DNA of 35,142 bases, from NCBI GenBank assembly GCA_947473305.1, contig CANJCB010000042.1, positions 1-35,142 on the forward strand, written 5' to 3'. Both the position numbers and the translations under genes were made by a program. How positions within the stretch are numbered: the first letter of the stretch is position 1; each line of letters opens with the position of its first letter. This stretch comes from Rhodospirillales bacterium (GTDB lineage: Bacteria; Pseudomonadota; Alphaproteobacteria; ATCC43930; CGMCC-115725). Of the stretch, positions 2,801 through 32,877 are shown one piece after another. The notes beneath the pieces are model-generated. The model saw only the letters and a program-made list of their open reading frames with translations, ran no database searches and was not told the DNA's origin.

Positions 2801-2806
2801 CTGCCG

Positions 2807-3616
2807 CTAGGTCGGAATGATAACGGGATCTGGCACGAAGGAGCGGCATTGGCCCTGCAACTTCTCCACGAGCGGGCCTATGGCTTCCATAAGTCCTGCC
2901 TTCGTCGGATCGAAGCGCTCCATCGGACCGCCGATGGTCAGGATGCCATGGATGTGTTCGTCAGCGCCGGGAAGCGGAAAGGCAACATAGGCCCCACTGA
3001 ACTGCTTGGGGTTGCGCCAGACGATATGAGCCGCGCCCCGCAGCCGGCGCAGATCGTCCCAGAGGTCGCTCTCGGTCGCGACCGCGTCGTCAGGATAGAG
3101 GTCGTTGTAGCGATCCAGCGGCGAAGCGATGTCGATATATTTCCGGATCTCCTCGTCGCTCAAGGAGGAGAGCAGATAGCGCGACTGCTTGGTGCAATGG
3201 AGAGGAACCGGCCGGCCGCGCTGGCCAAGACTGACCCGGCGTCCCTGGGCCTCGATCCAGTCGATATTGACCCGGTTGGGGCCGACCATGATCGAGAGGA
3301 AAACGCTCTCCCCGCTGACGATATGAAGCTGCTCCAGCGTCGGACGGCACAGCGCGCGGAGGTCGAAGGTCGCTTCGTCGGTATGAAGATCGAGGATGCG
3401 GTAGCCGAGTTGATAGCGATCTCCGCCCGGGTCCTTGATCACATAGCCCGCGTCCACCAGGGTCGAAAGCACCCGGTAGATGAGGTTCTTGTTCATCCCC
3501 GTGGCACGGCTCAACTCACTGATTCCCCGGGACGATTCCGGTCCGGCGAACATCAGCAGAAGGTTCAGGACCCGCTGACTCGCTTGATTACCGTAGCGTG
3601 GACTCTCCGACATCAT
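2807..3616 (-). CDS. IclR-family transcriptional regulator 2
   Basis: The protein is 269 aa if started at the ATG at 3616. A GTG at 3667 would add 17 residues with no family resemblance. The helix-turn-helix covers about residues 12-60 (SRGISELSRATGMNKNLIYRVLSTLVDAGYV), and the ligand-binding domain covers about 80-260. It is the first gene of a two-gene IclR operon reading left. The shared 40-bp element at 3671-3710 lies just upstream, in the divergent space before the alpha/beta hydrolase. Autoregulation plus control of the hydrolase operon and the dehydrogenase is the simplest reading, by inference. Neither possible start has a strong ribosome binding site. Confidence 0.9.
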   Translation of the reverse strand: MMSESPRYGNQASQRVLNLLLMFAGPESSRGISELSRATGMNKNLIYRVLSTLVDAGYVIKDPGGDRYQLGYRILDLHTDEATFDLRALCRPTLEQLHIVSGESVFLSIMVGPNRVNIDWIEAQGRRVSLGQRGRPVPLHCTKQSRYLLSSLSDEEIRKYIDIASPLDRYNDLYPDDAVATESDLWDDLRRLRGAAHIVWRNPKQFSGAYVAFPLPGADEHIHGILTIGGPMERFDPTKAGLMEAIGPLVEKLQGQCRSFVPDPVIIPT

Positions 3617-3670
3617 GCAAGCCGATCTGCGAGCGCCCGGACCCCTGGGTGTAATTGACAGAAGCACATC

Positions 3671-12977: not shown

Positions 12978-13088
12978 CGCGCATCTGGTCCTGTAACTTT
13001 CTGAAGCTTCGGTTGGATATCCCTGATTCGGTTCCGGGATAAAGGCTCCCGGCTGCCTAGCCAAGCCGTTTGTTTTGCTGATAAATAC

Positions 13089-13108
13089 ATGTTTACCATA
13101 GCAAACAT
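13089..13108 (+). promoter_or_regulatory. Palindromic operator candidate before the sugar-type ABC operon
   Basis: ATGTTTACCATAGCAAACAT is a 20-bp inverted repeat with 8 of 10 pairs matched. It lies 20 bp before the ATG at 13129 and upstream of a GGGAGG ribosome binding site. Size, symmetry and the GTTTAC/GCAAAC arms resemble LacI/GalR-family operators, a common control of CUT1 sugar importers. No LacI gene is present in the window. Confidence 0.55.
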
Positions 13109-13128: not shown

Positions 13129-14466
13129 ATGGCGGGGAATTTCATTTCGGGTGCATCGATCGGTCGGCGTAGTCTCGTCAAGGGGATAGGCGGCGCGGCG
13201 CTTGTGGCGGGAACCGCCGGCGCCCCCTGGATCGCCCATGCCCAGGGCAAGAAAAGCCTCCGCTTCTGGACCAGCCAGAACGCGCCGAATCAGATGCAAG
13301 CTTGGCAGGACATCTTCGGCCGTTTCGAGAAGGCAAATCCCGACTTCAAGGTCGAGATCGAGGCCTATTCCGACGACAACCTCTGGCCCAAGCTCTCGGC
13401 CGCTTTCGCCGGCCGGGACGTGCCGGACCTTATTTCCTATGTGCAGGCCTATACGGTCGTGAGCCTCAACCAGCAAGGCCTGGTCGAGCCTTTCGACGAT
13501 GTGATCAAGGCGGTGGGCGAGAACGAATTCTTCGACAGTGCCCGCGACATCTACAAGAGCAACGGCAGCTACATGGCCGCCACGCTCAACAACCAGACAA
13601 GTTCCAACCTCTTCTACCGCAAGGACCTGCTGCAAGAGGCCGGGGTCGAGCCGCCGCGCTATTGGGACGATCTTCTGAACGTCGCCAAGAAGACCACCAA
13701 GAACGGCATCTACGGCAATTCGCTGCCCTATGGCCGCAACGCGATGACCAGCACCATGATGGTGATGTTCGTGAAGCAGTCCGGCGGCTCGATCGTCAAT
13801 CCCGACCTCTCCGTCGCCTTCAATTCCCCGGAAGTGGCCGCGACACTGGAATTCCTCAAGGAAATCTACGAATACGCCCCGCCGGGCGCCAACAATTACA
13901 GCTGGGGCGAGACGGTCAATTCCTTCGTGACCGGCAAGGCCGCCTGCGCCCCCTATACGGGTCGGCCGCTGTTCCTGGTCAGTACCCAGAACCCCTCGCT
14001 GGCGGACAAGATCTCCCGCGTCGCCTATCCCCATCGCAAGGAAGGGAAACCGGCTTACGATTGTCCCTTCAACTCGCTCTTCATTCCCAAGGGATCGAAG
14101 AACGTCGAAGGGGCGAAGCTCCTGGCCCGTGCGCTCTTCGAGAAGCAGGCGAATATCCAGATCCTGCATACGGCGCCCGGCCATAACCTGCCGGTTCTGA
14201 AGGCGGTGGCCGCAGCGCCCGAATACTATGACCAGCCGCTCATCAAGAAATATGAGTCGGAGGTCAGGGGCATGATCGAGACCACCAATCTCTCGCGTAA
14301 TCTGGTCAAGGAAAGCGACCAGCATAAGTTCAACGTGAAGGCGGGCGATATCTTCAACAGCATGGTGCTGGCGGAAGCCGTCCAGGCCGTCGTGGTGGAG
14401 AAGAAGTCGGCGAAGCAGGCCGCCGCCGAGGGCGCCGACAAGATCGCGGAGATCATGAAGGGCTGA
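13129..14466 (+). CDS. CUT1-type ABC transporter substrate-binding protein (SBP family 1), Tat-like leader
   Basis: This 445-aa extracytoplasmic protein has a twin-arginine leader, SIGRRSLVKGIGGAAL (residues 10-25), with cleavage likely after AHA (about 39). The mature protein matches MalE/UgpB-like binding proteins: LRFWTSQNAPNQMQAWQDIFGRFEKANPDFKV, then a lipid-free type II fold with FYRKDLLQEAGVEPPRYWDDLL at about 162-183. The start has GGGAGG upstream. It heads a complete operon with two permeases and an ATPase (to 17281). Substrate class is a sugar, polyol or glycerol-phosphate-like compound by family; it cannot be refined further. Confidence 0.92.
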   Translation: MAGNFISGASIGRRSLVKGIGGAALVAGTAGAPWIAHAQGKKSLRFWTSQNAPNQMQAWQDIFGRFEKANPDFKVEIEAYSDDNLWPKLSAAFAGRDVPDLISYVQAYTVVSLNQQGLVEPFDDVIKAVGENEFFDSARDIYKSNGSYMAATLNNQTSSNLFYRKDLLQEAGVEPPRYWDDLLNVAKKTTKNGIYGNSLPYGRNAMTSTMMVMFVKQSGGSIVNPDLSVAFNSPEVAATLEFLKEIYEYAPPGANNYSWGETVNSFVTGKAACAPYTGRPLFLVSTQNPSLADKISRVAYPHRKEGKPAYDCPFNSLFIPKGSKNVEGAKLLARALFEKQANIQILHTAPGHNLPVLKAVAAAPEYYDQPLIKKYESEVRGMIETTNLSRNLVKESDQHKFNVKAGDIFNSMVLAEAVQAVVVEKKSAKQAAAEGADKIAEIMKG

Positions 14467-14477
14467 GCCGCCGCCTC

Positions 14478-15377
14478 ATGGAGCCGTCGAACCGCAAGCG
14501 CGAGAGCCGGGAGCGGTGGCTCGGCCTCGCTCTCATCTCGCCGACCATGGTGCTGTTCCTGACGCTCGTCGCCTATCCTCTGGCGGCGAGCATCGGGTTC
14601 AGTCTCTTTTCGATCAATACCCTGACCTTGCAGGGGCGTTTCGTCGGCTTCGACAATTATACCCGCCTCTTCGGGCAGGCGGCTTTCTGGACCTCTTTCC
14701 AGAACACGTTGATCTGGACGGTGAGCGCCGTCTCGCTCCAGCTCCTCTGCGGGATCGGTTTCGCGTTGCTCCTGCACCGGAGTTTCCCCGGCCGGTCGCT
14801 GGCGCGGGGGCTGGTGCTCTTTCCCTATCTGCTGCCGACCGCGGTCGCGATCCTGGTGTGGCAATGGATGTTCAACGACCTCTACGGGATCATCAATTAC
14901 GGCCTGCTCTCCGCCGGCCTCGTATCGAAGCCCATCGCCTGGCTGAGCCACATGCCCGACGCCATGGTCAGCATCGTGCTGGTCGGTACCTGGAAGCTTT
15001 TTCCCTTCGTCGTCATCGCCGTCTTGGCCCGGCTTCAGACCATCCCGGAGCAGCTCTATGAGGCGGCGCGGCTCGACGGCGCGGGCGTCTGGGCGCGTTT
15101 CTGGGACATCACCCTGCCGCAGCTTCGCGGGGTGCTGGTGATCGTCGTGCTGCTGCGCAGCATCTGGGACTTCAAGGAATTCGATCTCATCTATCTGATG
15201 ACTGGCGGCGGACCGGCGATCGGAACCCAGACCCTGCCGTTGATGGTCTATAAGGAGGCCTTCCCGCTCCTGAATTTGGGGCGTGGCGCGGCGGTGGCGG
15301 TGGCCATGCTGGTCTTCATGCTGGCCTTCTTCCTCCTTTATTTCCGGACCTATGGGAAAGAAGAGGAGGAGAGATGA
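14478..15377 (+). CDS. CUT1 ABC transporter permease 1 (MalF/UgpA-like)
   Basis: The 299-aa inner-membrane permease has six predicted hydrophobic helices and the EAA coupling loop EQLYEAARLDGAGVWARFWDITLPQL (about 192-217) that docks to the ATPase. The N-terminus (ESRERWLGLALISPTMVLFLTLVAYPLAASIGFS) is typical of MalF/UgpA-like subunits. It begins 11 bp after the binding-protein stop, without an obvious ribosome binding site, and its TGA overlaps the next ATG. It forms the channel with the following permease. Confidence 0.92.
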   Translation: MEPSNRKRESRERWLGLALISPTMVLFLTLVAYPLAASIGFSLFSINTLTLQGRFVGFDNYTRLFGQAAFWTSFQNTLIWTVSAVSLQLLCGIGFALLLHRSFPGRSLARGLVLFPYLLPTAVAILVWQWMFNDLYGIINYGLLSAGLVSKPIAWLSHMPDAMVSIVLVGTWKLFPFVVIAVLARLQTIPEQLYEAARLDGAGVWARFWDITLPQLRGVLVIVVLLRSIWDFKEFDLIYLMTGGGPAIGTQTLPLMVYKEAFPLLNLGRGAAVAVAMLVFMLAFFLLYFRTYGKEEEER

Positions 15378-16192
15378 AGCGCTTCCTGGCCGCCCTTCTC
15401 ACCTGGTTCGCGGTTCTCCTCGTCGCCTTCCCGCTTTTCTGGATGATCTCCAGCGCCTTGAAGCCTCATGCGGAAACCTTCGCGATTCCGCCGACGCTTC
15501 TGCCGGTGAATTGGACGCTGGAGCACTTCCAGGTCTTGGTCTTCGAGACCCCCTTCCTGCGTTATTTCCTGAACAGCTTGATCGTTGCGGCTCTGACAAC
15601 GGCTCTTGTTCTCGTGGTCGCGGTACTGGGCGCCTATAGCCTCGTGCGCTTCCGCTATCCGGGCCGGCGCTTCATGGCGCAATTGACGCTCTTCACCTAT
15701 CTCTTGCCGGCTGTGGTGCTGCTGCTGCCGCTTTATCTGCTGCTCGCCCAATTGGGGCTCACCAACAGCCTCTTCGGGCTGGTCATCGCCTATACGACCT
15801 TCGCGCTGCCCTTCTCGCTCTGGCTGCTGCGGTCCTTCATCGCGGCGATTCCCATCGACCTCGAAGAGGCCGCGATGGTGGATGGAGCGAGCCGGATGGG
15901 CGCTTTCCGGGATGTGGTGCTGCCCCAGGCGGTGCCGGGGCTGATCTCGACCGCGCTCTTCACCTTCATCCTGAGCTGGAACGAGTATCTCTATGCGCTC
16001 GTCTTCATCAACCGCAACGACATGAAGACCCTGCCGCCGGGGGTCATCACCATGCTGCAGCAGAACCAGAACATCGAATGGTCACTGCTCATGGCGGCCT
16101 CGGTGCTGATGTCGATTCCGGTGCTGATCAGTTTCTCCTTCCTGCAAAGCCATCTGACGCACGGTTTCGGGGCCGGCGCGGTAAAGGGATAG
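15374..16192 (+). CDS. CUT1 ABC transporter permease 2 (MalG/UgpE-like)
   Basis: The 272-aa inner-membrane protein shows the MalG-type N-terminus (LVAFPLFWMISSALKPHAETFAIPP) and the EAA loop PIDLEEAAMVDGASRMGAFRDVVLPQAVPGL (about 158-188). Five to six further hydrophobic segments follow the normal pattern. It starts on an ATGA overlap with the first permease, and AGGAGGAGAG in the preceding codons serves as ribosome binding site. Three bases separate it from the ATPase gene. Confidence 0.92.
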   Translation: MKRFLAALLTWFAVLLVAFPLFWMISSALKPHAETFAIPPTLLPVNWTLEHFQVLVFETPFLRYFLNSLIVAALTTALVLVVAVLGAYSLVRFRYPGRRFMAQLTLFTYLLPAVVLLLPLYLLLAQLGLTNSLFGLVIAYTTFALPFSLWLLRSFIAAIPIDLEEAAMVDGASRMGAFRDVVLPQAVPGLISTALFTFILSWNEYLYALVFINRNDMKTLPPGVITMLQQNQNIEWSLLMAASVLMSIPVLISFSFLQSHLTHGFGAGAVKG

Positions 16193-16195
16193 CCC

Positions 16196-17281
16196 ATGGC
16201 GACCGTCACGCTCGATCATCTGCGCAAGGATTTCCCCGACGGCACCGTGGCGGTAGAGGATTTCTCCCTTCTCATCGAGGACGGTGAATTCCTGACGCTG
16301 CTCGGGCCTTCGGGCTGCGGCAAGACGACGACGCTTCGGATGATCGCCGGGCTTGAAACGCCGACCGGCGGCGCGATCCGCTTCGGCGACCGCCGCGTCG
16401 ACGATCTGGCGCCCGGCCAGCGCAATATCGCCATGGTCTTCCAGAGCTATGCGCTCTACCCGCATATGACGGTGCGGCAGAATCTCGAATATCCGCTGAA
16501 GAAGCATGGCGTTCCGCGCGAGGAACGGCGCAGGCGGGCCGACGAACTCGCGCTCATGCTGCAGATCGGTCCCCTCCTGGATCGCCGTCCGAAGCAGCTC
16601 TCCGGCGGCCAGCAGCAGCGGGTGGCCTTGGGCCGGGCCTTGATCCGCGATCCCGAGGTCTTCCTGCTGGACGAGCCCTTGAGCAATCTCGACGCGACCT
16701 TGCGCGCCCAGCTTCGCGCGGAGCTTATCCAGCTTCATCAGCGCATCGGCAAGACCATGGTCTATGTGACCCATGACCAGTTCGAGGCCATGACCATGTC
16801 GACCCGGATCGCCGTTCTCCACCAGGGCCGCCTTCAGCAGGTCGGCACGCCCGACGAGGTCTATCGCAGGCCCGCCAACCGTTTCGTCGCGTCTTTCGTT
16901 GGCACGCCCGCGATGAATTTCCTGACGGGCGAGATCGCGGGCGAGGGCGACCGGATCGCTATCGCCGGTGTCACCACGCCGGTCTCCCTGCCGCCCGAAC
17001 GCGCCGCGGCGCTGCGGGAACTGTCCCCGGCGCGCGACGTGATCGTGGGGCTGCGGCCCGAGGACATTCTCGTCGGCACCGGCGAGGCCTCGGCAACGAT
17101 TAAATTGGTGGAACCCCTCGGCCACGAGGCGCTCGTCTATCTCGACATCGGCGGCCAGAGCGTGATCAGCCGGGCGAGCAGCGAGATGTCGCTTCGGGCC
17201 AAGGAGAGCACGGCAATCGATTTCCGTGCCGCCCGCCTTCATCTCTTCGACCCGGCCTCCGGTCGCAGACTCGACTGTTGA
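16196..17281 (+). CDS. CUT1 ABC transporter ATPase (MalK/UgpC-like)
   Basis: The 361-aa ATPase has Walker A GPSGCGKTT (37-45), the Q-loop VFQSYALYPHMTV (81-93), signature [15 protein letters not shown] (135-149), Walker B VFLLDEPLSNLDA (155-167) and the switch His193 (THD). A TOBE/OB-type regulatory domain follows (about 240-361, with GLRPEDI), as in MalK and UgpC. It energises the two preceding permeases and closes the operon. The next gene begins 88 bp later behind a palindrome and probably has its own control. Confidence 0.94.
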   Translation: MATVTLDHLRKDFPDGTVAVEDFSLLIEDGEFLTLLGPSGCGKTTTLRMIAGLETPTGGAIRFGDRRVDDLAPGQRNIAMVFQSYALYPHMTVRQNLEYPLKKHGVPREERRRRADELALMLQIGPLLDRRPKQLSGGQQQRVALGRALIRDPEVFLLDEPLSNLDATLRAQLRAELIQLHQRIGKTMVYVTHDQFEAMTMSTRIAVLHQGRLQQVGTPDEVYRRPANRFVASFVGTPAMNFLTGEIAGEGDRIAIAGVTTPVSLPPERAAALRELSPARDVIVGLRPEDILVGTGEASATIKLVEPLGHEALVYLDIGGQSVISRASSEMSLRAKESTAIDFRAARLHLFDPASGRRLDC

Positions 17282-18188: not shown

Positions 18189-18323
18189 CCGCTGTTCCGC
18201 CGGACCCCCATCTAGGCCTCTGACAGCAAGGATCGGAGTTTTCCGCGCCCGGATCCGTTGCAGGATTCCGGGAATTGGCGGGGAATTGGCGGGAAGCTGG
18301 TGGGAGTGGAGGGGAGATCTGGG

Positions 18324-19034
18324 GTGGAAAATATCGGCGATCGCTTGGATGGGATCGATTGGCAGGTCGTGAGCGCCGAACTGGACGACCAGGGCTGGGC
18401 GCTTCTGCCCGGTCTGATGAACGAGGCCGACTGCGGGCAAGTCGTTACGCTCTATGGGCAGCAGGATCTCTTCCGAAGCCATGTGGTCATGGCACGCCAT
18501 GGCTTCGGCAAAGGTGAATATCGCTACTTCGCCTATCCTCTGCCTGCCCTGGTGCAGGAATTCCGGACGGCGCTCTATCCTCATCTGGCGCCCGTCGCCA
18601 ATCGCTGGCAGCGGAGGATGGGTATCGACACGAGCTTTCCGATGGATCACACCGCTTTCCTGAAGCGCTGCCATGCCGCCGGGCAGACGCGGCCGACGCC
18701 GCTGCTGCTCCGATACGGCGCGGGCGACTACAACTGCCTCCACCAGGATCTTTACGGAGAGCATGTGTTTCCGCTGCAGGCGACGGTCCTTCTCTCCGAG
18801 CCGGGGCGCGAGTTCTCGGGCGGCGAATTTGTGGTCACGGAGCAGCGCCCCCGCATGCAGTCCCGGGCGGAAGTCGTCCCCTTGGCCAAGGGCGACGCGG
18901 TGATATTCGCGGTCAACGGCCGGCCCCGGACCGGCAACCGGGGCGATTATCGTGTCACCCTGCGCCACGGCGTCAGCACCTTGAGGTCGGGACAGCGGCA
19001 TACGCTGGGGATCATCTTCCACGATGCAGCCTGA
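18324..19034 (+). CDS. 2OG-Fe(II) oxygenase, prolyl-hydroxylase-like, uncharacterised family (COG3826-like)
   Basis: The 236-aa protein starts at GTG 18324 behind GGAGGGGAG; upstream in-frame codons give an unlikely Gly-rich leader. Conserved features are YFAYPLPALVQEFRTALYPHLAPVANRW, the metal motif HQD within NCLHQDLYGEHVFPLQ, the distal His in LRHGVSTL, and the Arg in GQRHTLGIIFHDA. This matches a conserved bacterial family of 2OG-Fe(II) oxygenases of unknown substrate, distantly related to prolyl 4-hydroxylases (recognition from memory). Its last 11 bases overlap the alkB start, which implies co-translation and perhaps a joint role in nucleic-acid or protein repair (inference). Confidence 0.82.
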   Translation: MENIGDRLDGIDWQVVSAELDDQGWALLPGLMNEADCGQVVTLYGQQDLFRSHVVMARHGFGKGEYRYFAYPLPALVQEFRTALYPHLAPVANRWQRRMGIDTSFPMDHTAFLKRCHAAGQTRPTPLLLRYGAGDYNCLHQDLYGEHVFPLQATVLLSEPGREFSGGEFVVTEQRPRMQSRAEVVPLAKGDAVIFAVNGRPRTGNRGDYRVTLRHGVSTLRSGQRHTLGIIFHDAA

Positions 19035-19665
19035 TCTCTTCGCCGAAGATCGCAGCCGCTTGGAGCTTGATCCCGGCGCCTTCCTGCTCGGCGGCTTCGC
19101 GCTGGAAGAAGCGGCGGCCCTTCTGGAAGGCATCGAGGTTGTCCAGGCCGCAAGCCCCTTCCGTCAGATGGAGACGCCGGGTGGCCGGTCCATGTCGGTC
19201 GCCATGACGAATTGCGGCCCGGCGGGATGGACGACAAGCCGGCGTGGCTATCGCTATACGGACCGGGATCCCGAGACCGGCGCGCTTTGGCCGGCGATGC
19301 CGAAAGCTTTCGCGGAGGTGGCGCGACGTGCGGCCGCCGAGGCCGGATATGCCGCTTTCGAGCCCGATGCCTGCCTTGTGAACCGCTATGAGCCTGGCGC
19401 GCGGCTCTCCCTCCATCAGGACAGGGACGAGGTCGATAAGAGCGCCCCCATCGTTTCCCTGTCGCTCGGCCTGCCGGCGGTCTTTCTCTGGGGCGGGCAA
19501 ACGCGCCGCGAGCGGCCCCGCCGTCTCATGCTCCACCATGGCGATGCGGTGGTTTGGGGCGGGCCTTCGCGCCTGACCTTCCACGGGATCGATATCTTGG
19601 CGTCGGGCGACCACGCCGTCACCGGCCCCTTGCGCTACAATCTCACCCTTCGCAAGGCGCGATAG
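19024..19665 (+). CDS. alkB: AlkB, Fe(II)/2-oxoglutarate DNA/RNA alkylation-damage demethylase
   Basis: The 213-aa protein is close in length to E. coli AlkB (216 aa), and every key residue falls at the same number: His131 and Asp133 in LSLHQDRDE, His187 in LTFHGID, and Arg204 and Arg210 in RYNLTLRKA. AlkB oxidatively removes methyl groups from 1-methyladenine and 3-methylcytosine in DNA and RNA, releasing formaldehyde. NRYEPGARLSLHQD and GDAVVWGGPSRL are family signatures. The ATG overlaps the preceding oxygenase gene by 11 bp. In E. coli alkB follows ada. No ada or alkA homologue lies here; the partners are other 2OG oxygenases. Confidence 0.96.
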   Translation: MQPDLFAEDRSRLELDPGAFLLGGFALEEAAALLEGIEVVQAASPFRQMETPGGRSMSVAMTNCGPAGWTTSRRGYRYTDRDPETGALWPAMPKAFAEVARRAAAEAGYAAFEPDACLVNRYEPGARLSLHQDRDEVDKSAPIVSLSLGLPAVFLWGGQTRRERPRRLMLHHGDAVVWGGPSRLTFHGIDILASGDHAVTGPLRYNLTLRKAR

Positions 19666-21212: not shown

Positions 21213-21307
21213 CGTGAATCTCCCAAAAGAGGTGCGGCCATTTTTATAGGTTCGAAAAGTCGGGTTTTTGTTTGCAGGTCCGACGCACTTCTATATGCAG
21301 GCCGGTC
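21213..21307. promoter_or_regulatory. Divergent promoter region between binding protein A and IclR 3
   Basis: This 95-bp gap must hold promoters for both flanking genes. On the minus strand TATAAAAAT is a reasonable -10 region for the binding protein. The minus strand also reads CATATAGAAGTG and then GCAAACAAAAA, which loosely resemble the CATAGAA and CAAAACAAG parts of the shared boxes at 23528-23559 and 26694-26724. Confidence 0.4.
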
Positions 21308-22120
21308 ATGAACGAGACCGATCCTCTCCATAAGAATCACGCCAGCTATTTCGTCCCCGGTTTGCAGCGGGGCCTGCGCGTCTTGGAAGTCATCGCGGCG
21401 GCGCGCCGCCCGATGACCGTCTCGGAAATCGCATCGAAGCTGAAGCTTTCGCGATCCTCGGTTTTCCGGCTGGTCTATACGCTCCAGCTCACCGGCTTCC
21501 TGGAACCCATCGAGGACGCGAAGGTTTTCACGCTCGGCGCGCGGGTGCTGAACATCGGTTTTGCCTATCTGGCGTCCAAGGACATCATCGAGGTGGCGCG
21601 GGCGGATCTGGAAACTCTGCGCAACAACACGAATGTCTCCGCCCATCTGGCGATTCGCGACACCCGGGAGGTGCTCTACCTGAGTTGCATCCAGACCCGC
21701 TCGGGCTTCCTCAGCAACATGAACGTCGGTGCGCGGATTCCCGCCTATGCGACGCCCATGGGGTGGTTTCTGTTGTCGGATCTTTCCAACCGCGAGATCG
21801 CGACGCTCTTCGAGGGACAGGTCTTCGAGACTCTGACGGATCAGACGCCCCGGGACCTGGGCAGTCTCAGCCAGCGGATCGCCGAGGGCATCGGCAAGGG
21901 CTGCATCATCAGCCATGGCATCATGGAAGCGGGGGGCAGTTCTATCGCGGCTCCCGTTTTCGATAAATCCGGCCGTGTGGTGGCGGCGATCGATGTGTCG
22001 GGACCCGACTCCGCCTTCGAGATGAGCGAGCTTCAGTCCCGCTATGTGAACGAGGTCCTGAAGGCCGCCGCCAGCATCTCGGCCAGGCTGGGTCATAATC
22101 CGGGCTTCACTGCCGGCTGA
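21308..22120 (+). CDS. IclR-family transcriptional regulator 3
   Basis: The 270-aa regulator has an N-terminal winged helix-turn-helix (about 17-70: PMTVSEIASKLKLSRSSVFRLVYTL) and a C-terminal effector domain (about 90-265, with GARIPAYATPMGWFLLSDL and GGSSIAAPVFDKSGRVVAAIDVSG). The ATG at 21308 gives the normal N-terminus; an earlier in-frame start adds unrelated residues. It is divergent from binding protein A and convergent with the aminotransferase. As the only regulator among these genes, it is the natural candidate to bind the shared boxes at 23528 and 26694 (inference). Confidence 0.92.
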   Translation: MNETDPLHKNHASYFVPGLQRGLRVLEVIAAARRPMTVSEIASKLKLSRSSVFRLVYTLQLTGFLEPIEDAKVFTLGARVLNIGFAYLASKDIIEVARADLETLRNNTNVSAHLAIRDTREVLYLSCIQTRSGFLSNMNVGARIPAYATPMGWFLLSDLSNREIATLFEGQVFETLTDQTPRDLGSLSQRIAEGIGKGCIISHGIMEAGGSSIAAPVFDKSGRVVAAIDVSGPDSAFEMSELQSRYVNEVLKAAASISARLGHNPGFTAG

Positions 22121-22149: not shown

Positions 22150-23496
22150 TCATGCCGCCTTGGCGACGGCGGTCAGCGAGGGTTCTATCGCGCGCTGCAG
22201 CTTGTCGATCATTTCGTCGATTTCGCTCTGGCCGACGATATAGGGCGGCGCCACCAGCACATGGTCGCCGTTCCGCCCATCGGCGCTGCCTGAGGACGGA
22301 TAGCAGATGAGGCCCAATTCCTGCGCCTTCGTCTTGATCCGGCCGGCAAGATTGAGCGAGGCGTCGAAAGGCCGCTTGGTCGCGCGGTCGGCGACCAGCT
22401 CGACGCTCCAGAAGAGGCCCCGGCCCCGGATGTCGCCGACATTGGGATGATTGCCGAACTGGCTCCGCAGCAATTCCTCGACCACGGCGCCCTGGGTCTT
22501 CACCCGCCCGATGAGCTGCTCCTCCTCGAAGGCGTCGAGGACGGCGAGCGAGCCGGCGCAGCCCACCACATGGCTCATATAGGTATGGCCATGGGCGAGC
22601 TGACCCGTGCCGTCGATGATCGGCTGTATCACGGAGGCCTTGGCGAGGAGGGCGCCGATCGGCTGATAGCCGGCGCCGAGGCCCTTGGCGATGGTGATGA
22701 TATCGGGCGTCACCCCTTCCGCCTCAGAGGCGAAGAGCGTGCCGGTCCGGCCCATGCCGCACATGACCTCGTCGGCGATGAAAAGCACGCCATATTTGTC
22801 GCAGATCTCGCGGATGCGCTTGAAGTAGCCGGGAGCCGCCGTCGCAGACCCAAGGGTTGCACCCACCACGGGCTCCGCGATGAAGGCGGCGACCGTCTCC
22901 GGCCCCAGCTCTTCGATAGCGGTCTGAAGTTCGTTCGCCATGCGCAGCCCGTAGGCTTCCAGGCTTTCGCCCGCTTCCTGGCCGCGATAGGCGTGGCAGG
23001 GCGAAATTAGCGCGGTTTTCATCAGCAGGGGCTCGTAGATCGCCCGCCGCCCGGGATGGCCGCCAATGCCGAGCGCGCCGATGGTATTGCCGTGATAGCT
23101 CATGCGCCGTGCGATGAAGCGGCTGCGCTGGGACTGCCCCGCCTCGACGAAATGCTGGCGGACGAGTTTCAGCGCCGCTTCCATGGCTTCGGAACCGCTG
23201 CCCACGAAAGCGACGCGGCCGCCGGCGAAACCTTCGGGCGCGAGCGAAATCAGGCGATCCGCCAGCCGTTCCGCGGGCTCTGATGTGAAGAAGGAGGTAT
23301 GCGCGAAGGCCAGGGTTCCGACCTGGCGCTGGATCGCCTCGATCACCCGGGGATGGCTGTGGCCGAGGCAGGAGACGGCCGCGCCGCCCGACGCGTCGAG
23401 ATAGCGCTTGCCCGCCTCATCGATCAGATAGCAGCCTTCGCCACGTACCACGAGAGCGGGAGTCTCGGCGATCTTGCGATGGAGAATGGAGCTCAT
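22150..23496 (-). CDS. Class III PLP-dependent aminotransferase
   Basis: The 448-aa cytosolic enzyme is of the omega-aminotransferase type. The PLP lysine is Lys271 in ITIAKGLGAGYQPIGA, and Asp242 in FIADEVMCGMGRTG contacts the pyridine nitrogen. GSGSEAMEAALKLVRQ (99-114) binds the cofactor phosphate, and SYHGNTIGALGIGG follows at about 133-146. Typical substrates of this class are omega-amino acids, diamines and beta-alanine-like compounds, with pyruvate or 2-oxoglutarate as acceptor. GAGGA precedes the ATG at 23496, and the shared box at 23528-23559 lies just upstream. Placement between binding-protein and CoA-transferase genes suggests deamination of an imported amine. Confidence 0.94.
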   Translation of the reverse strand: MSSILHRKIAETPALVVRGEGCYLIDEAGKRYLDASGGAAVSCLGHSHPRVIEAIQRQVGTLAFAHTSFFTSEPAERLADRLISLAPEGFAGGRVAFVGSGSEAMEAALKLVRQHFVEAGQSQRSRFIARRMSYHGNTIGALGIGGHPGRRAIYEPLLMKTALISPCHAYRGQEAGESLEAYGLRMANELQTAIEELGPETVAAFIAEPVVGATLGSATAAPGYFKRIREICDKYGVLFIADEVMCGMGRTGTLFASEAEGVTPDIITIAKGLGAGYQPIGALLAKASVIQPIIDGTGQLAHGHTYMSHVVGCAGSLAVLDAFEEEQLIGRVKTQGAVVEELLRSQFGNHPNVGDIRGRGLFWSVELVADRATKRPFDASLNLAGRIKTKAQELGLICYPSSGSADGRNGDHVLVAPPYIVGQSEIDEMIDKLQRAIEPSLTAVAKAA

Positions 23497-23527
23497 CTAA
23501 TCCTCGGGGCAATCCCAATTTTATTGA

Positions 23528-23559
23528 TATACAAAACATAGAACGGTATACAAAACAAG
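23528..23559. promoter_or_regulatory. Shared AT-rich operator box, copy 1
   Basis: The box begins TATACAAAACATAGAA and repeats TATACAAAACA 21 bp later, two helical turns, so it carries an internal direct repeat. Its first 16 bases are identical to those of copy 2 at 26694-26724, and most of the rest matches. It lies 32 bp upstream of the aminotransferase ATG, in the divergent gap before the SMP-30-like gene. Confidence 0.65.
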
Positions 23560-23663
23560 AGTTGGGGCCTGAAGCAAGGGGCTAATTGTGAGGTCCGATT
23601 TGCTGGACTTCTAAGCTTCCTCCATGGTGGCAGCGGGGTATTTTCTTGGGAACGCGAGGAGCC

Positions 23664-24560
23664 GTGACGCTGTCGCCGCCACAAGACATCGAGGCCGAGC
23701 TTTTTACCCGCTTGCCCGAAGATCTCCATTACCGGGGCGAGCCCAACGACTGGGTCAAAGCGACGCGGCCGGGACAGCGGCTCCATTCCTTCATAGAGGG
23801 GCCGTCCTTCGACGATCAGGGGCGGCTGTGGCTGGTCGATGTGCCCTATGGCAGGATTTTCCGGATCGATCCCGAAGGCACCTGGACCCTCGCCCATGCC
23901 TATGACGGCGAGCCCCATGGGCTGGCAAGGCTGCCTGACGGATGCTACGCGGTGGCGGATTACCGACACGGACTTCTGAAGCTCGATCCCGAGGCAGGCT
24001 CGGTCGAGACGATTTGCGGCCGGATCAATACGGAGCGCTTCCGGGGCCTGGGCGACCTGACGCGCGCGCCGAACGGCGATCTCTGGTTCACCGATCCCGG
24101 ACGCAGCAGCCTTACCGATCCCACAGGCCGGCTCTTCCGGCTGCGCCAGGGCGAGACGCGGCCGGAACTCATCTTGCAGAACATCCCCTATCCCAACGGC
24201 GTGGCGCTGGGGCCTGACGGCAAGCTTGTCTATCTTTCGGTGACCCGGGCCAATGCGATCTGGCGCTTCATGGCGGAGGCTCCCGATCCCGTCTATCCGA
24301 TGGTCGGGACCTATATCCAGCTTTCGGGCGGGCTCGGACCCGATGGGCTCGCGGTCGACCGCCACGGCCGGCTCGCGGTCGCCCATGCGCAGGCGGGACG
24401 GGCCTGGCTCTTCGACAAATGGGGCGATCCCATTGCCCGCATCCGCACGCCGGGGGGAAGCTGGACAACCAGCGTCGCCTTCACGCCGGATGGCTTGGGG
24501 CTGATGATCCTCGATGCGGAGACCGCTTCCATCTATCGCGTTGCCCTGCCGGCGGCTTGA
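23664..24560 (+). CDS. SMP-30/gluconolactonase-like beta-propeller hydrolase
   Basis: The protein is 298 aa when started at GTG 23664, which has GAGGA three bases upstream; TTG at 23646 would add six residues. The six-bladed propeller family uses one divalent metal. Its usual ligands are visible as Glu45 in FIEGPSFDDQGRLWLVD, Asn178 in IPYPNGVALGPDG and Asp227 in GGLGPDGLAVDRHGRL. NGDLWFTDPG is another family hallmark. Members hydrolyse sugar lactones and other lactones or esters. It ends 24 bp before the CoA-transferase, so the two probably share a transcript starting near the 23528 box. Substrate unknown. Confidence 0.9.
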   Translation: MTLSPPQDIEAELFTRLPEDLHYRGEPNDWVKATRPGQRLHSFIEGPSFDDQGRLWLVDVPYGRIFRIDPEGTWTLAHAYDGEPHGLARLPDGCYAVADYRHGLLKLDPEAGSVETICGRINTERFRGLGDLTRAPNGDLWFTDPGRSSLTDPTGRLFRLRQGETRPELILQNIPYPNGVALGPDGKLVYLSVTRANAIWRFMAEAPDPVYPMVGTYIQLSGGLGPDGLAVDRHGRLAVAHAQAGRAWLFDKWGDPIARIRTPGGSWTTSVAFTPDGLGLMILDAETASIYRVALPAA

Positions 24561-24584
24561 GCGGCGCTAACCCGAGGTACAACC

Positions 24585-25787
24585 ATGAAAGCCTTCGACG
24601 GCATCCGCGTCCTCGATTTCACCCATGTGATCGCGGGACCCTTCTGTACCTATCAATTGGCTCTCCTGGGCGCCGATGTGATCAAGGTCGAGGAACCCGA
24701 ATCGGGCGACTACCTGCGCGGCCGGGGCGGCGTCGATGCCTTGAGGCGGTCCTTGATGGGCGACCATTTTGCCTGCCAGAACGCCAACAAGCGGTCGATC
24801 GCCATCGATCTCAAGCACCCCGACGGCGCGGCGCTGGCGCGGCGGTTGGCCAAGCGTGCCGATGTGCTGGTGGAGAATTTCCGCCCCGGCACCATGGACC
24901 GGCTGGGGCTCGGCTACGACGCGGTGAAGGCGCGGAACCCGAAGCTGGTCTATTGCTCGCTGAGCGGTTACGGGCAGATCGGCGACCTCGGGTCCCGTCC
25001 GGTCTACGACAATGTGGTGCAGGCCTTCAGCGGCTTGATGGCGGCGACAGGAACCGCGACTTCCGGGCCACTCAAGAGCGGCGCGCCGATCCTCGATTAT
25101 GCCTCGGGCACGATGGCGGCCTTTGCCGTGGCGGCGGCGCTGATGCGCCGGGAACGCACGGGGGAAGGCCAATACGTCGATGTCTCGATGGTGGACACCG
25201 CCTTCATGCTGATGAGCCCGGTAATCTCCTCGCTGCTCAATGCAGGCAAGCCGCCGAAGCCCCATGCCAATGACCATGCCCTGGCGGCGGCAAGCTGCTA
25301 TGTGGCCGCGGATGGCGAACTCATCATGCTGGGGTCCTGCAATCAGGCGCAATTCGAGACCCTGTGCCGGTTGATCGGGCGGGAGGATCTTCTGGCGGAT
25401 ATGCGCTTCGCGGATGTCCGCCTGCAGGATCCGCATCGTGCGGCCCTGGAGCCTATCCTCGCCGGGGAAATGAAAAAGCGGACTGCTGCGGAATGGGAAA
25501 CCTTGCTCGCGGCCCAGGTCCCCGCCACCCGGGTGCGTAAGCTCGGCGAGGCGCTTGAGGGTTCAGATGCCGTCGGTCGCGGCGTCGTCCAGAAAATCAC
25601 CTATCCCGGCGCGCCGGAGGGTGGCTTGGCGGTGCCGGTCGCAGCCTATCGCACCGATAGGGACGGGCCGGAGATCACGACTCCGCCCTCGCCACTGGGC
25701 CAGGATGGTCGATCTGTGCTGGCGGAACTCGGTCTTTCCGAGGAGGACCAGAACCGCTTGGCGGAAAGCGGCGCGGTCCGCTTCTAG
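24585..25787 (+). CDS. CaiB/BaiF-family (class III) CoA-transferase A
   Basis: The 400-aa enzyme has the family start GIRVLDFTHVIAGPFCTYQLALLGADVIKVEEP (7-39), NKRSIAIDLKHPDGAALARRLAKRADVLVENFRPG (68-102) and YCSLSGYGQ (123-131). The catalytic aspartate is Asp171 in APILDYASGTMAAF, which would form the aspartyl-CoA anhydride. Class III enzymes move CoA between carboxylic acids, for example formyl/oxalyl, carnitine or mesaconyl/succinyl. GAGG lies about ten bases before the ATG. A second member sits at 26798-27997. It converges on binding protein B. Confidence 0.94.
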   Translation: MKAFDGIRVLDFTHVIAGPFCTYQLALLGADVIKVEEPESGDYLRGRGGVDALRRSLMGDHFACQNANKRSIAIDLKHPDGAALARRLAKRADVLVENFRPGTMDRLGLGYDAVKARNPKLVYCSLSGYGQIGDLGSRPVYDNVVQAFSGLMAATGTATSGPLKSGAPILDYASGTMAAFAVAAALMRRERTGEGQYVDVSMVDTAFMLMSPVISSLLNAGKPPKPHANDHALAAASCYVAADGELIMLGSCNQAQFETLCRLIGREDLLADMRFADVRLQDPHRAALEPILAGEMKKRTAAEWETLLAAQVPATRVRKLGEALEGSDAVGRGVVQKITYPGAPEGGLAVPVAAYRTDRDGPEITTPPSPLGQDGRSVLAELGLSEEDQNRLAESGAVRF

Positions 25788-25805
25788 AACCGCGCCGATC
25801 TTCGC

Positions 25806-26648
25806 CTAGAACTTCACGCCGGCGGGGATCTTCTCGACTTCGAGGCCGGCTTCCTTCATGGCGTCATAGATCGCCGTGGTCGCGCCGCCGCCGGCCTGAT
25901 AGGCCGTGGCCCAATCCTGCATGAAGCGCAGGAAGCGACCGTCGCCGTCCTTGCGGGTGCCGCCGCCCGAAGGGGGAGCCTCCACCGGCTGCAGCAAGGT
26001 GATATCGCCGAGGTTCGGGTTGTTCTTGACGCCGATGAGGCCAAGGAGAAGTCCCATCACCACGGCATCGGACTTGCCCGCCTGTACTTCGAGCACAGCC
26101 TCGCTGGTGCTTTTCAGGGCGCGGATCGAGGCGCCGGTCAGCCGCTTTTTCGCCGCCAACTCGTCGGTCGTGCCCATGACCACGGAGATCGTCGTGGCGG
26201 GCTTGTTGTAGTTGCTCCAGTCCTTGCCCGGATCGAAACCCTTCCGATTGAAGGCGACGACGGGCATCAGATAAAGCGGCTCGAACATGTCGACGGCCGC
26301 CCTGCGCTCCTCGGTCACGGTCAGCGGAATATAGACGTCGATTCGGTTGGCCTGGAGATCGAGGATCGTCGTCTGGTTGGTGGTCTCGACATATTCGAGC
26401 GCCACAGGATGTCCCAGCTTCTCCCCGAGCTTCCCGACGAAGTCCTTGGTCATCGTATCGATGAAGCCCTTCACCTTGCCGCCGTCGACCCATTGATAGG
26501 GCGCGCGGTTCGGGATGAAGCCGACCCGGATCTTGCCGGTCTTGTCGATCTGCTCCCAGGTGGATGTCTGCGCCATGGCGGGCTGCGAGATCGCGAAACC
26601 GATCATGACTGCCAAGGTTACAAAGAGCGATGCTCGCAAGTTTTTCAT
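25806..26648 (-). CDS. Family 3 ABC substrate-binding protein, orphan paralogue B
   Basis: The 280-aa periplasmic protein starts at ATG 26648 with AGGGGAA upstream; an earlier in-frame start lacks such a site. The signal peptide is about residues 1-27 (ending PAMAQ). The mature part has IRVGFIPNRAPYQWVDGGKVKGFIDTMTKDFV, VMGTTDELAAKKRL, PPSGGGTRKDGDGRF and the terminus VEKIPAGVKF, shared with paralogue A. It lies between two CoA-transferase genes, with the shared operator box 46 bp upstream. Like A it lacks an adjacent transporter, and might feed the GltJKL-like permease at 28006-30106 (inference). Confidence 0.9.
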   Translation of the reverse strand: MKNLRASLFVTLAVMIGFAISQPAMAQTSTWEQIDKTGKIRVGFIPNRAPYQWVDGGKVKGFIDTMTKDFVGKLGEKLGHPVALEYVETTNQTTILDLQANRIDVYIPLTVTEERRAAVDMFEPLYLMPVVAFNRKGFDPGKDWSNYNKPATTISVVMGTTDELAAKKRLTGASIRALKSTSEAVLEVQAGKSDAVVMGLLLGLIGVKNNPNLGDITLLQPVEAPPSGGGTRKDGDGRFLRFMQDWATAYQAGGGATTAIYDAMKEAGLEVEKIPAGVKF

Positions 26649-26693
26649 CGGGTTCCCCTGTTCCAATTGGTTTGCCAGCGACTTGATAATTTA

Positions 26694-26724
26694 TATACAA
26701 AACATAGAATGATACGCAAACAAG
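26694..26724. promoter_or_regulatory. Shared AT-rich operator box, copy 2
   Basis: It begins TATACAAAACATAGAA, identical to copy 1 (23528-23559), and ends ACGCAAACAAG, a slightly shorter and diverged version of the second half. It has the same orientation and position: between a leftward gene (binding protein B, start 26648) and a rightward gene (CoA-transferase B, start 26798). Confidence 0.65.
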
Positions 26725-26797: not shown

Positions 26798-27997
26798 ATG
26801 GCGCAGCCCTATAGCGGCATCAAGGTAATCGACATGACCCACGTGCTGGCGGGTCCCTTCGCCACCTATCAGCTTGCGGTGCTGGGCGCGGAGGTCATCA
26901 AGATCGAGAACCCGCGCCAGCCCGATCAGGTGCGCGAGACGGGCGTCGAGGACGAATGGGGCCATCGCCTCATGAACACGAATTTCCTGACGCAGGGCTC
27001 GAACAAGCGGGCGATCACCCTCGACATTCACTCGGAGAAGGGCCGCGAGATCCTGTTGAAGCTGGTCAAGGGCGCGGATGTCTTCGTGCAGAATTACCGG
27101 ACCGGCGCGCTCGAGGGCCTGGGTCTCGGCTACGAGGCTCTGAAGAAGCTGAATCCCAACCTGATCTATTGCTCGATGACGGGTTTCGGCGCGACCGGCC
27201 CCAAGGGCCAGCACACGGCTTACGACGGCGTCATCCAGGCCACTTCCGGGCTCATGAGCGTTTCAGGCACGCCGGAGGTCAACCCCCTCAAGGTGGGCGC
27301 GGCGGTGGTCGATTATGCGAGCGGAACGACAGCCGCCTTCGCGATCGCCAGCGCGATCGTGCAGCGGGAGCGCAACGGGGGCGGCAGTCAGCATATCGAC
27401 GTGGCGATGATGGATGCGGCGCTCATGCTCTTGAGCTCGAACGTCTGCGGCTATATGTCGACGGGCAAGCGCCTCTCGGCCCCGCGTGGCAACGCCTATC
27501 CGACGGCCGGCGGCAGCTGCTTCGAGACCAAGGAGGGGCTCATCATGCTGTCCTCGATCAACGACCGGCAGCATATCCGGCTCTGGAAGCTCTTGGGTCG
27601 CGAGGATTTCGCCAAGCTCTACCGGCACTTCGACCAGGTCGAGCACGATGCCGAGCTGCGCGGCGAGCTGACCCGGATCTTCATGACCAAGACGGCGGCC
27701 GAATGGGAAGAGATCCTCAACGGCGCCGGCGTGCCCGCGGGCCGCGTCCGCACCATCCCCGAAGCCCTGGAGATGGAACAGACCAAGGGCCGCAAGAACC
27801 TCCTGCACACGCATGAGTATGTGAAGGGCGTCGAGGGGCCGGTGACCGTGCCGGTCCAGGGTTTCTCCTACGAGCACGATGGCGCCAAGATCCATTCGCC
27901 GCCGCCGATGATGGGCGAGCATACCGACGATGTGCTGAAGGAATTGGGCTACGGCGCCCAGGAGATCGCCGCGCTCCACGAGCAGGGGGTCGTTTAA
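26798..27997 (+). CDS. CaiB/BaiF-family (class III) CoA-transferase B
   Basis: The 399-aa protein is clearly related to CoA-transferase A: GIKVIDMTHVLAGPFATYQLAVLGAEVIKIENP, NKRAITLDIHSEKG, YCSMTGFGATGPKG and VVDYASGTTAAF, with catalytic Asp172. GGGAGG lies upstream of the ATG at 26798. It is divergent from binding protein B and converges on the ABC ATPase gene with an 8-bp gap. Two different class III CoA-transferases within 4 kb suggest either two acyl substrates or a heteromeric enzyme. The pair may activate acids produced by aminotransfer and later dehydrogenation (inference). Confidence 0.94.
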   Translation: MAQPYSGIKVIDMTHVLAGPFATYQLAVLGAEVIKIENPRQPDQVRETGVEDEWGHRLMNTNFLTQGSNKRAITLDIHSEKGREILLKLVKGADVFVQNYRTGALEGLGLGYEALKKLNPNLIYCSMTGFGATGPKGQHTAYDGVIQATSGLMSVSGTPEVNPLKVGAAVVDYASGTTAAFAIASAIVQRERNGGGSQHIDVAMMDAALMLLSSNVCGYMSTGKRLSAPRGNAYPTAGGSCFETKEGLIMLSSINDRQHIRLWKLLGREDFAKLYRHFDQVEHDAELRGELTRIFMTKTAAEWEEILNGAGVPAGRVRTIPEALEMEQTKGRKNLLHTHEYVKGVEGPVTVPVQGFSYEHDGAKIHSPPPMMGEHTDDVLKELGYGAQEIAALHEQGVV

Positions 27998-30982: not shown

Positions 30983-31016
30983 GAGTATCCTCCCGATATA
31001 TCTTTCTTGGCGGGCA

Positions 31017-31049
31017 GTTTGTGGGCAAACGATTGTTTGGTCAAGAAAG
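31017..31049. promoter_or_regulatory. Cluster of GTTTG/CAAAC half-sites in a divergent promoter
   Basis: GTTTG (31017-31021), CAAAC (31026-31030) and GTTTG (31035-31039) are evenly spaced by four bases, giving two overlapping palindromes. CTTTCTTG at 31002-31009 pairs with CAAGAAAG at 31042-31049, enclosing the array. It lies between the GltI-like gene (start 30982) and the amidohydrolase (start 31140) and is probably a regulator binding site. Confidence 0.45.
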
Positions 31050-31139
31050 CTTGCCGCTTCCGCCCGAAAGCCCTATCGGCAGGCTTGTCCCTGGGCGGAA
31101 CGGCGCATGGCCACTGCCGAAGCCACGGAGTAAGCGGGC

Positions 31140-31980: not shown

Positions 31981-32583
31981 TCACGCGGATCTTTTCTTCA
32001 GGTCTTCCGGCGTTTCCAATGCGTGGAGCGCACGCTTGGAATCGATCAGCAGGGTAGAGATGATCTTGGTGAAGTGACGCGCTTCCGTCTTGGTCAAGGA
32101 GCCGAACATGATGTCGTTGGTCTCCCGCCGGATCGTGCCGACCTGACGCACGCGATCCCGCCCCTCCTCGGTGAGCCGAAGCAGCATGCTGCGGCCGTCG
32201 CGAACGTTCTTGTGCTTCTCCACGAGGCCCGCATCGATAAGCTTGTTGATTTCAGCGGTCACGAAGGGGCTTGAGACATGAAGTTGCTCCGCGAGGCGGG
32301 TGACGGTGCTGTCTCCCGCCTCGCCGATCGCGACGATCATGTTGAATTGCGGCGCCGTTACCGAGATATGCGCGGCGAAACGCTCGCGCGCCCGAAGCAT
32401 ATTCGATGACACGGTCAGTAGATTGTAGATCAGCTCACGGAAACGCGTGTCCGAGCCGTCCTGGAGGAAATTCTCCTGCGAGGTGCTGAGAGGCGGAAAT
32501 TGCTCGCTTGCGCCTCCTTGGGGGAATGTCTTCCTGTCGGCCGCATCCGCCGTGGTTTCTTCCCCTTGCCTTTGGGTCTTCAT
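31981..32583 (-). CDS. MarR-family transcriptional regulator
   Basis: The protein is 200 aa if started at ATG 32583, which has GGGGAG upstream; an earlier ATG at 32625 has no ribosome binding site. The first 45 residues are polar and probably disordered. The winged helix domain covers about 75-145 with TVTRLAEQLHVSSPFVTAEINKLIDAGLVEKHKNVRDGRS, including the classic MarR wing DGRS. MarR proteins act as dimers that leave DNA on binding aromatic or other small ligands. It converges on the amidohydrolase with a 10-bp gap and may control it and the importer through the half-sites at 31017-31049 (inference). Confidence 0.92.
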   Translation of the reverse strand: MKTQRQGEETTADAADRKTFPQGGASEQFPPLSTSQENFLQDGSDTRFRELIYNLLTVSSNMLRARERFAAHISVTAPQFNMIVAIGEAGDSTVTRLAEQLHVSSPFVTAEINKLIDAGLVEKHKNVRDGRSMLLRLTEEGRDRVRQVGTIRRETNDIMFGSLTKTEARHFTKIISTLLIDSKRALHALETPEDLKKRSA

Positions 32584-32877
32584 TGGCCGCTCCCCGGCAA
32601 ATCGCGTGTGCCCTATTTGACGCATAGCATAGTGCGTGTCGCACCGGAGCCTGCAATTACTCTTTGCGAGATTCTTGCCTCAAGCGTTCACAAAAACGGT
32701 AGTGCGTCGGCAAAGACGGAAGCGGCCGGCTTGGCAAGGCCGTCGGCTTGTCGCACGATGGTGTGTCGGCCTGAGCTGAAACCGGGGGCCATAAATAAGA
32801 CGAGGATCGCTGCCATCCCGGTCAAGGAACGATGGGCCGCTTCTTTCAACAGGTCGTTGATTTCGGATCGCGACGTC
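32584..32877. other. Intergenic region with no supported gene
   Basis: These 294 bases lie between the MarR start and the stop of the next leftward gene. A 42-codon minus-strand frame at 32688-32816 begins MAAILVLFMAPGF and looks hydrophobic, but it lacks a ribosome binding site and a recognisable homologue. The part near 32600-32645 should hold the marR promoter; CATAG occurs twice there (CATAGCATAG). No terminator is evident. Confidence 0.4.

Follow-up and report, generated by a model that had tools for sequence, protein, structure and literature searches.

Paired palindromes 19 bp apart as the probable operator of an IclR-family regulator in a Rhodospirillales bacterium

In a 35,142-nucleotide stretch of DNA from a Rhodospirillales bacterium (GCA_947473305.1, contig CANJCB010000042.1; hereafter the window), two similar boxes lie at divergent promoters, among genes for a class III aminotransferase, an SMP-30-like hydrolase, two coenzyme A (CoA) transferases, and a solute-binding protein. 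We found that each box is part of an element with two short palindromes whose starts are 19 bp apart. By sequence comparison, such elements occur beside relatives of the regulator IclR 3, which is also encoded in the window, and within this genome they are concentrated on two contigs. The boxes are very probably a tandem operator of IclR 3. The boxes and the genes around them are as follows (numbers after the Pfam domains are E-values; ORF is short for open reading frame).

23522 to 23556, no strand: box 1, a tandem palindromic element, with TATTGATATACAAAAC at 23522-23537 and GAACGGTATACAAAAC at 23541-23556, 19 bp from start to start.
26688 to 26722, no strand: box 2, a tandem element, with AATTTATATACAAAAC at 26688-26703 followed by a weak copy at 26707-26722; score 15.5.
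21308 to 22120, plus strand: IclR 3, the proposed regulator, 270 amino acids (longer ORF: Pfam IclR_C 4.6e-33, HTH_IclR 7.8e-15).
22150 to 23496, minus strand: class III aminotransferase (Pfam Aminotran_3 4.2e-92; NCBIfam NF005685 677 bits, cut-off 485).
23664 to 24560, plus strand: SMP-30/gluconolactonase-like hydrolase, starting at GTG 23664 or TTG 23646 (longer ORF: Pfam SGL 1.1e-32).
24585 to 25787, plus strand: first copy of CoA-transferase family III, 24 bp after the SMP-30 gene (Pfam CoA_transf_3 5.9e-107).
25806 to 26648, minus strand: solute-binding protein B, family 3 (longer ORF: Pfam SBP_bac_3 7.2e-12).
26798 to 27997, plus strand: second copy of CoA-transferase family III (longer ORF: Pfam CoA_transf_3 2.3e-104).

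The 16-base sequence TATACAAAACATAGAA occurs at 23528-23543 and again, identically and in the same orientation, at 26694-26709. The surrounding 32 nt (23523-23554 and 26689-26720) agree at 84% of positions without a gap. Box 1 lies between the aminotransferase gene (leftward) and the SMP-30 gene (rightward), and box 2 lies between the gene for binding protein B (leftward) and the second CoA-transferase gene (rightward). An earlier note on this DNA had described 16 shared leading bases with most of the rest alike, and two boxes in one orientation, each flanked by one leftward and one rightward gene; both descriptions hold. With up to 3 mismatches, TATACAAAACATAGAA matches the window at these two places only (shuffled sequences had a mean of 0.01 matches, and none of 100 shuffles had two). 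We found no third copy with at most 1 mismatch in the whole genome of 4,695,435 bases, and a 27-base longer form with up to 3 mismatches gave the same two matches and no third. Across the family, just 1 of 39 genomes, the bacterium's own, had a match to TATACAAAACATAGAA with at most 1 mismatch. Box 1 also contains a direct repeat, with matches of the GTATACAAAAC type at 23527 and 23546, so its period is 19 and not the 21 bp that the same note had given. This short pattern is not significant by itself: 10 of 100 shuffles reach an equal match count.

The architecture of the element was clear from gene clusters in other proteobacteria, where it consists of two short palindromes of about 15-16 bp each, with arms GTTT and AAAC, 19 bp apart. 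In plasmids of Rhizobium leguminosarum (locus L016) and Sulfitobacter sp. SK012 (L017), the corresponding promoter has clear palindromes (GTTTTGTATACTAAAC and GTTTTGTATATTAGAC), with a second palindrome 19 bp before each, and a strong single palindrome lies directly upstream of the IclR gene. We recognized the palindromic nature of the boxes because the orthologues showed it. A single-palindrome reading from the boxes alone is not visible in the window, as their left arms are too degenerate. Both plasmid clusters encode an IclR protein, a BKACE protein, an aminotransferase (57 and 58% identical to the window's), a CoA-transferase, and an SMP-30 protein (50% identical in both). Locus L009, a contig of a metagenome-assembled genome (Proteobacteria bacterium), encodes binding proteins A and B, the first CoA-transferase, IclR 3, the aminotransferase, and the SMP-30 protein at 57-73% identity and in a rearranged order. 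In the genomes G647 and G737, an IclR gene (about 68 and 63% identity) adjoins an aminotransferase gene (67 and 63%). Overall, the relatives of IclR 3 are 68% identical to it in L009, 66-68% and 63-64% in L042 and L041 (both from G647), 49-51% in L016, and 46% in L017.

The cores of some of these sites might suggest another kind of regulator. GntR/FadR-type sites resemble TTGTATACAA, the GTATAC core found in box 1 and at the Rhizobium sites agrees with this consensus, and the Rhizobium IclR gene has a GntR gene about 6.5 kb away. Nevertheless, it is quite improbable that the boxes are the operator of a GntR/FadR-type regulator instead of IclR 3. The GTATAC core is gone from the sites of locus L043 and of a Nitratireductor plasmid (L018), but the arms are kept. 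Among 38 of the window's ORFs that were run against Pfam (90 are listed), the only GntR match was below threshold, in IclR 1, and none is annotated in the 18.8-kb Sulfitobacter stretch, whose annotation is incomplete by design. Within the range of this comparison (the 38 ORFs of the window and the Sulfitobacter and Rhizobium loci), a GntR gene is not linked to the site across orthologous loci, and an IclR is the sole regulator that we found to be common to the clusters.

To quantify the spacing, we scored pairs of palindromes at offsets of 10-40 in the six aminotransferase promoters that adjoin a relative of IclR 3 (those of the window, L009, L016, L017, L042, and L043). The summed score has its maximum of 102.0 at an offset of 19, and the next best is 88.5 at 24. 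None of 1,000 dinucleotide-shuffled versions of the six-promoter set reached 102 at any offset (the best was 76). Three of these promoters (L009, L042, and L043) did not contribute to the consensus; they had been inspected by eye before scoring, and they sum to 44.5 at offset 19 (next best, 39.5), which none of 2,000 shuffled sets equalled. In five of the six promoters, the top-scoring site has its best partner at a distance of exactly 19 bp.

The earlier note had proposed a comparison with orthologous loci, and in this comparison paired palindromes at 19 bp recur in promoters that are linked to IclR. The six IclR-linked aminotransferase promoters score 13.0, 14.5, 17.0, 17.5, 18.5, and 21.5. 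Six control operon promoters (L031-L036) score 10.0-13.5, with best single sites of 6.5-8.5. The controls belong to aminotransferase homologues that are 57-60% identical to the window's (6 of 15 records listed, from 165 found), and "without IclR" means that no IclR is annotated within 8 kb. Five of the six IclR-linked promoters exceed all six controls, so the site is conserved beside orthologues of the regulator. Similarly, two SMP-30 loci (L014 and L015) had no match to IclR 3 at E 1e-12 and no match to the palindrome at 12 of 16 positions in the 16 and 15 kb that were scanned.

We also searched for the palindrome in larger sequences. The 16-base form GTTTTGTATACAAAAC, with up to 3 mismatches, occurs at 3 places in the 370-kb Rhizobium plasmid and at 2 places in the 107-kb Sulfitobacter plasmid, all of them inside the cluster; the same pattern read backward, as a control, occurs at 2 and 0 places. 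In the genome of L009 it occurs at 2 places, one of them in the cluster (backward control, 0). Within the window, there are three matches at 12 or more of 16 positions, which are both copies in box 1 and the first copy in box 2. A 14-base palindrome with 3 mismatches was uninformative (29 matches against 22 for the backward control in the bacterium's own genome, and 6 against 7 in G647). A search of 8 genomes or records for a tandem pattern of the arms only, with up to 2 mismatches, gave 6 places, and its backward control gave none. Five of the 6 places are tied to IclR 3 or a relative: position 13072 of the window, G737, G647, the Rhizobium plasmid, and the more distant IclR of Nitratireductor.

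Two more elements in the window, and an operon that follows one of them, are relevant here.

13072 to 13106, no strand: a further strong element, the third in the window, made up of GTTTTGCTGATAAATA and GTTTACCATAGCAAAC and preceding the sugar-type ATP-binding cassette (ABC) operon; score 17.5.
13129 to 17281, plus strand: ABC operon, with an SBP_bac_1 binding protein, two permeases, and a MalK-type ATPase (Pfam).
31016 to 31050, no strand: weaker candidate element, between the genes for binding protein C and an amidohydrolase, with no orthologous promoter compared; score 15.5.

The top tandem scores in the window belong to 13072 (17.5), 23522 (17.5), 26688 (15.5), 31016 (15.5), and 26669 (15.0, overlapping the pair at 26688). 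Box 1 shares the maximum of 17.5, which was not reached in any of 200 shuffled windows (their length may fall up to 2% below that of the window); they have on average 0.015 scores of at least 15.5. The score at 26669 arises from an additional weak copy 19 bp ahead of box 2, which pairs with 26688. As a side observation, 26669-26722 holds a row of three palindrome-like copies in steps of 19 bp, and the middle copy alone is strong.

The elements at 13072 and 31016 had been missed by the earlier note. The one at 13072 equals box 1 in strength, its end is 23 bp from the start codon of the ABC operon, and it is one of two matches to the arms-only pattern in the bacterium's own genome. Orthologous ABC operons are present in L009 (binding protein 63% and first permease 65% identical to the window's) and in L042 (binding protein 60%, permeases 62 and 72%), and upstream of each there is a pair scoring 15.0. 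In L042, the ABC operon and the relative of IclR 3 are divergent, and the pair lies between them. Because of this arrangement, we consider two other regulators of the window, IclR 1 and IclR 2, to be less likely owners of the 13072 site.

The other match to the arms-only pattern in this genome, and the sixth place overall, is on contig C20, where it starts 28 bp ahead of a gene for a BKACE protein (Pfam 6.5e-98). This BKACE shares 77% identity with that of G647 and 61-63% with the BKACE proteins that accompany IclR in the Rhizobium and Sulfitobacter plasmids. The four BKACE proteins encoded beside control aminotransferases share 24-33% identity with it in the aligned parts. C20 also encodes homologues of the Rhizobium iron-sulfur (Fe-S), NAD/FAD, and DAO oxidoreductases, of an SDR protein, and of a DapA-like protein. 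A scan of the whole contig gave four distinct elements with scores of at least 15, at 19516 (some 100 bp ahead of a gene for an ABC permease), 28348 (between the genes for an ABC ATPase and the Fe-S/flavin set), 32533 (before the BKACE gene), and 34528 (near the start of the DapA-like gene, whose start codon is uncertain). Pairs at offsets of 18 and 20-24 in the scan of C20 and the window mostly repeat the same elements. In all, pairs scoring at least 15 occur at four places in the window, at four places on C20, and nowhere in 339 kb from contigs C1-C17 (seventeen 20-kb stretches, with no element at 14.5 either). The G+C content is 64% in these control stretches and 62-63% in the window and C20. 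IclR 3 is the sole close member of its subfamily that we found in this genome (the next best protein is 32% identical), and no relative of it was found on C20.

These controls also bear on the idea that the boxes are mere core sigma-70 promoters, alike because of their -35 and -10 hexamers (in box 1, for instance, TTGATA, 17 nt, and TATACA). A scan with the consensus does place a promoter-like hexamer pair over box 2, and box 1 and its counterpart in L009 can be read by eye as TTGAYA-17-TATANA. However, the scan found no hexamer pair in box 1 or in the Rhizobium region, and the conserved arms, GTTT and AAAC, do not correspond to promoter hexamers. Many promoters must be present in the 339 kb of control sequence, which has no element, and five of the six IclR-linked aminotransferase promoters score above all six without IclR. 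We consider this explanation very improbable.

It is even less probable, and we would put it as highly so, that the two boxes are alike because one is a copy left by a local duplication, with no present function. The 16 identical bases do extend past the palindrome arm into the spacer, and repeated stretches are common to binding proteins A and B and to both CoA-transferases. But the gene pairs that flank the two boxes are unlike, ungapped similarity stops after 32 nt, and paired elements at 19 bp are found in the corresponding promoters of other genomes. An operator that was copied and is still functional would fit both duplication and regulation by IclR 3. Finally, the MarR regulator encoded at 31981-32625 of the window, which is local and adjoins the amidohydrolase gene, is extremely improbable as the protein that binds the boxes, as no homologue of it was found at E 1e-5 in the six searched loci with a relative of IclR 3 (L009, L016, L017, L041, L042, and L043).

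Several observations weigh against an operator of IclR 3. The region upstream of IclR 3 itself has no recognizable site: at 21213-21307, the best single site scores 7.0, within the range of the control singles (6.5-8.5), and 19 is absent from the four best pair offsets, so the weaker resemblance that had been noticed there does not stand out. The boxes in the window are poor palindromes, with degenerate left arms and, in box 2, a weak second copy. The aminotransferase promoter of L042 scores 13.0, within the control range (the other promoter of that cluster, between the IclR gene and the ABC operon, has the pair of 15.0). The consensus was partly drawn from loci that were later scored. The best partner is at an offset of 19 in only 8 of the 16 regions examined; those with another best offset include the upstream region of IclR 3 in the window, both plasmid IclR promoters (which have strong single sites), L042, two promoters of L009, and L019. 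As a single pattern, GTTTTGTATACAAAAC is unspecific in the bacterium's own genome (3 places, 1 of them in the window, against 2 for the backward control). The arms-only pattern has no match in 3 of the 8 genomes or records and misses box 1, because of its left arms, as well as the elements of L009 and L017. Also, a stretch on C20 that resembles IclR 2 (27% identity), about 26 kb from the C20 sites, could belong to another regulator of those sites. The proposal that IclR 3 is the regulator retains good comparative support from the five of six promoters, and the part of it that relied on the region beside IclR 3 does not.

Both the HTH_IclR and IclR_C domains of IclR 3 score above the gathering scores, which places it in the IclR family. 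Its best-scoring NCBIfam model is that of the PcaR/PcaU/PobR subfamily, which is involved in aromatic catabolism (TIGR02431), but its score of 180.6 bits is below the curated cut-off of 284.75, and both the motif and the controlled genes are different. The second-best model is that of BhcR, the regulator of the beta-hydroxyaspartate cycle (NF045644), at 142.8 bits, far under the cut-off of 350. Neither the gene set nor the core motif combined with IclR turned up anything in literature searches.

Tandem operators as such are already known for the IclR family, and the candidate operator here is ordinary in kind. In a published study by Suvorova and Gelfand (2021), tandem palindromic sites 18-22 nt apart (mainly 19-21) are described for 94 IclR groups (PMC8222616). 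The distance between centres in our elements, 19 bp, falls in this range. In the same study, the outer triplets of IclR group 1 motifs are separated by 11 or 12 nt (GTT-11-AAC among other classes), the site centres lie mostly 20-80 nt from the gene start, and the regulon is small and catabolic. The PcaR/PcaU/PobR motif is given there as GTNCG-N5-6-CGNAC, to which PcaU and PobR add an extra direct half-site (PMC8222616). Our elements resemble those of group 1 in their GTT/AAC arms, in having two copies 19 bp apart, in the distance from centre to gene, and in the small catabolic regulon that they would define. They differ in that exact GTT/AAC pairs are mostly 9 or 10 nt apart instead of 11 or 12: across 18 regions, we counted 7 pairs with 9 nt, 7 with 10, 1 with 11, and none with 12 (shuffle means, 0.53 for 9 and 0.45 for 10). 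With one mismatch allowed, spacings of 8 (31 sites), 9 (38), and 13 (21) beat all 300 shuffles, and 10 (20 sites; shuffle maximum, 21) does not. The half-site spacing seems to be shorter than in group 1 as published, with its exact value not settled by these counts. One of the groups in that study may match (PMC8222616).

Distances from the start of the flanking gene to the two site centres are about 34 and 53 bp for the aminotransferase, 48 and 67 bp for binding protein B, 31 and 50 bp for the ABC operon, and 42 and 61 bp for binding protein C. We infer that two dimers of IclR 3, or one tetramer, would occupy both palindromes of an operator close to the promoter and silence the genes; because the site centres are 19 bp apart, these would fit nearly the same face of the DNA. 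RNA polymerase would be blocked until IclR 3 binds a substrate or an intermediate of the pathway. Given the placement of the sites, including the hexamer pair that overlaps box 2 in the consensus scan (in box 1, by eye only), repression seems likelier than activation; PcaU and PobR act by activation. The gene content leads us to guess that the ligand might be an amine or an N-substituted amino acid.

The regulon had been proposed to consist of the genes for the aminotransferase, the SMP-30-like hydrolase, both CoA-transferases, and binding protein B. We keep these genes in the proposed regulon, which is likely to be wider: it would also take in the ABC operon at 13129-17281, possibly the promoter at 31016, and, in trans, the four places on C20, with the BKACE gene, the Fe-S/flavin oxidoreductase set, an ABC operon, and the DapA-like gene. 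Eight candidate operator places at named promoters, together with a named regulator, make this a testable regulon, and the shared operator would group the genes of a pathway that has not been assigned. It would also link the window to a second contig with a missing enzyme of the pathway, BKACE, which elsewhere is encoded beside this IclR. A more ambitious proposal is that this one IclR unites a catabolic route on two contigs via a tandem operator in which the distance between half-sites is 1-2 bp less than in group 1, with a distinct dimer geometry. We regard this as possible but doubtful, also because the counts with one mismatch leave the exact spacing unsettled. If true, the short spacing would pose a question about the geometry of IclR dimers. 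The route itself is similarly tentative, and may run from import of an amine or N-substituted amino acid through flavin oxidation, transamination, cleavage by BKACE, and CoA transfer to hydrolysis by the SMP-30 protein.

The gene cluster is rare among the genomes that we searched. Of 385 genomes in the class to which the window belongs, one (its own) had a match to IclR 3 at E 1e-60, and three had a match to the SMP-30 protein at E 1e-85. Of 346 genomes in the order that includes the L009 genome, three matched IclR 3 at E 1e-55. A search for binding protein B among 39 genomes (E 1e-40) and another among 43 (E 1e-85) each found only the bacterium's own, and no plasmid searched had a match at E 1e-50.

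A few other observations concern related regulators and the rest of the window. On the Nitratireductor plasmid, the same tandem architecture is present at 5926-5960 of L018, at the start of the gene for a 39-41% identical IclR and beside other transporter genes. This kind of operator may thus be shared by a broader IclR subfamily. G647 has two IclR 3-like regulators on one contig (L041 10364-11221, about 64% identical, and L042 6121-6966, about 68%), and the neighbourhoods of both hold transporter genes and a tandem element. Within the window, IclR 1 and IclR 2 are encoded side by side on the minus strand at 2000-3667 and are 19 and 21% identical to IclR 3. At 18258-19665 there is an adjacent pair of genes for 2-oxoglutarate/Fe(II) oxygenases (Pfam Oxygenase-NA and 2OG-FeII_Oxy_2), the latter of which we take to be AlkB-like.

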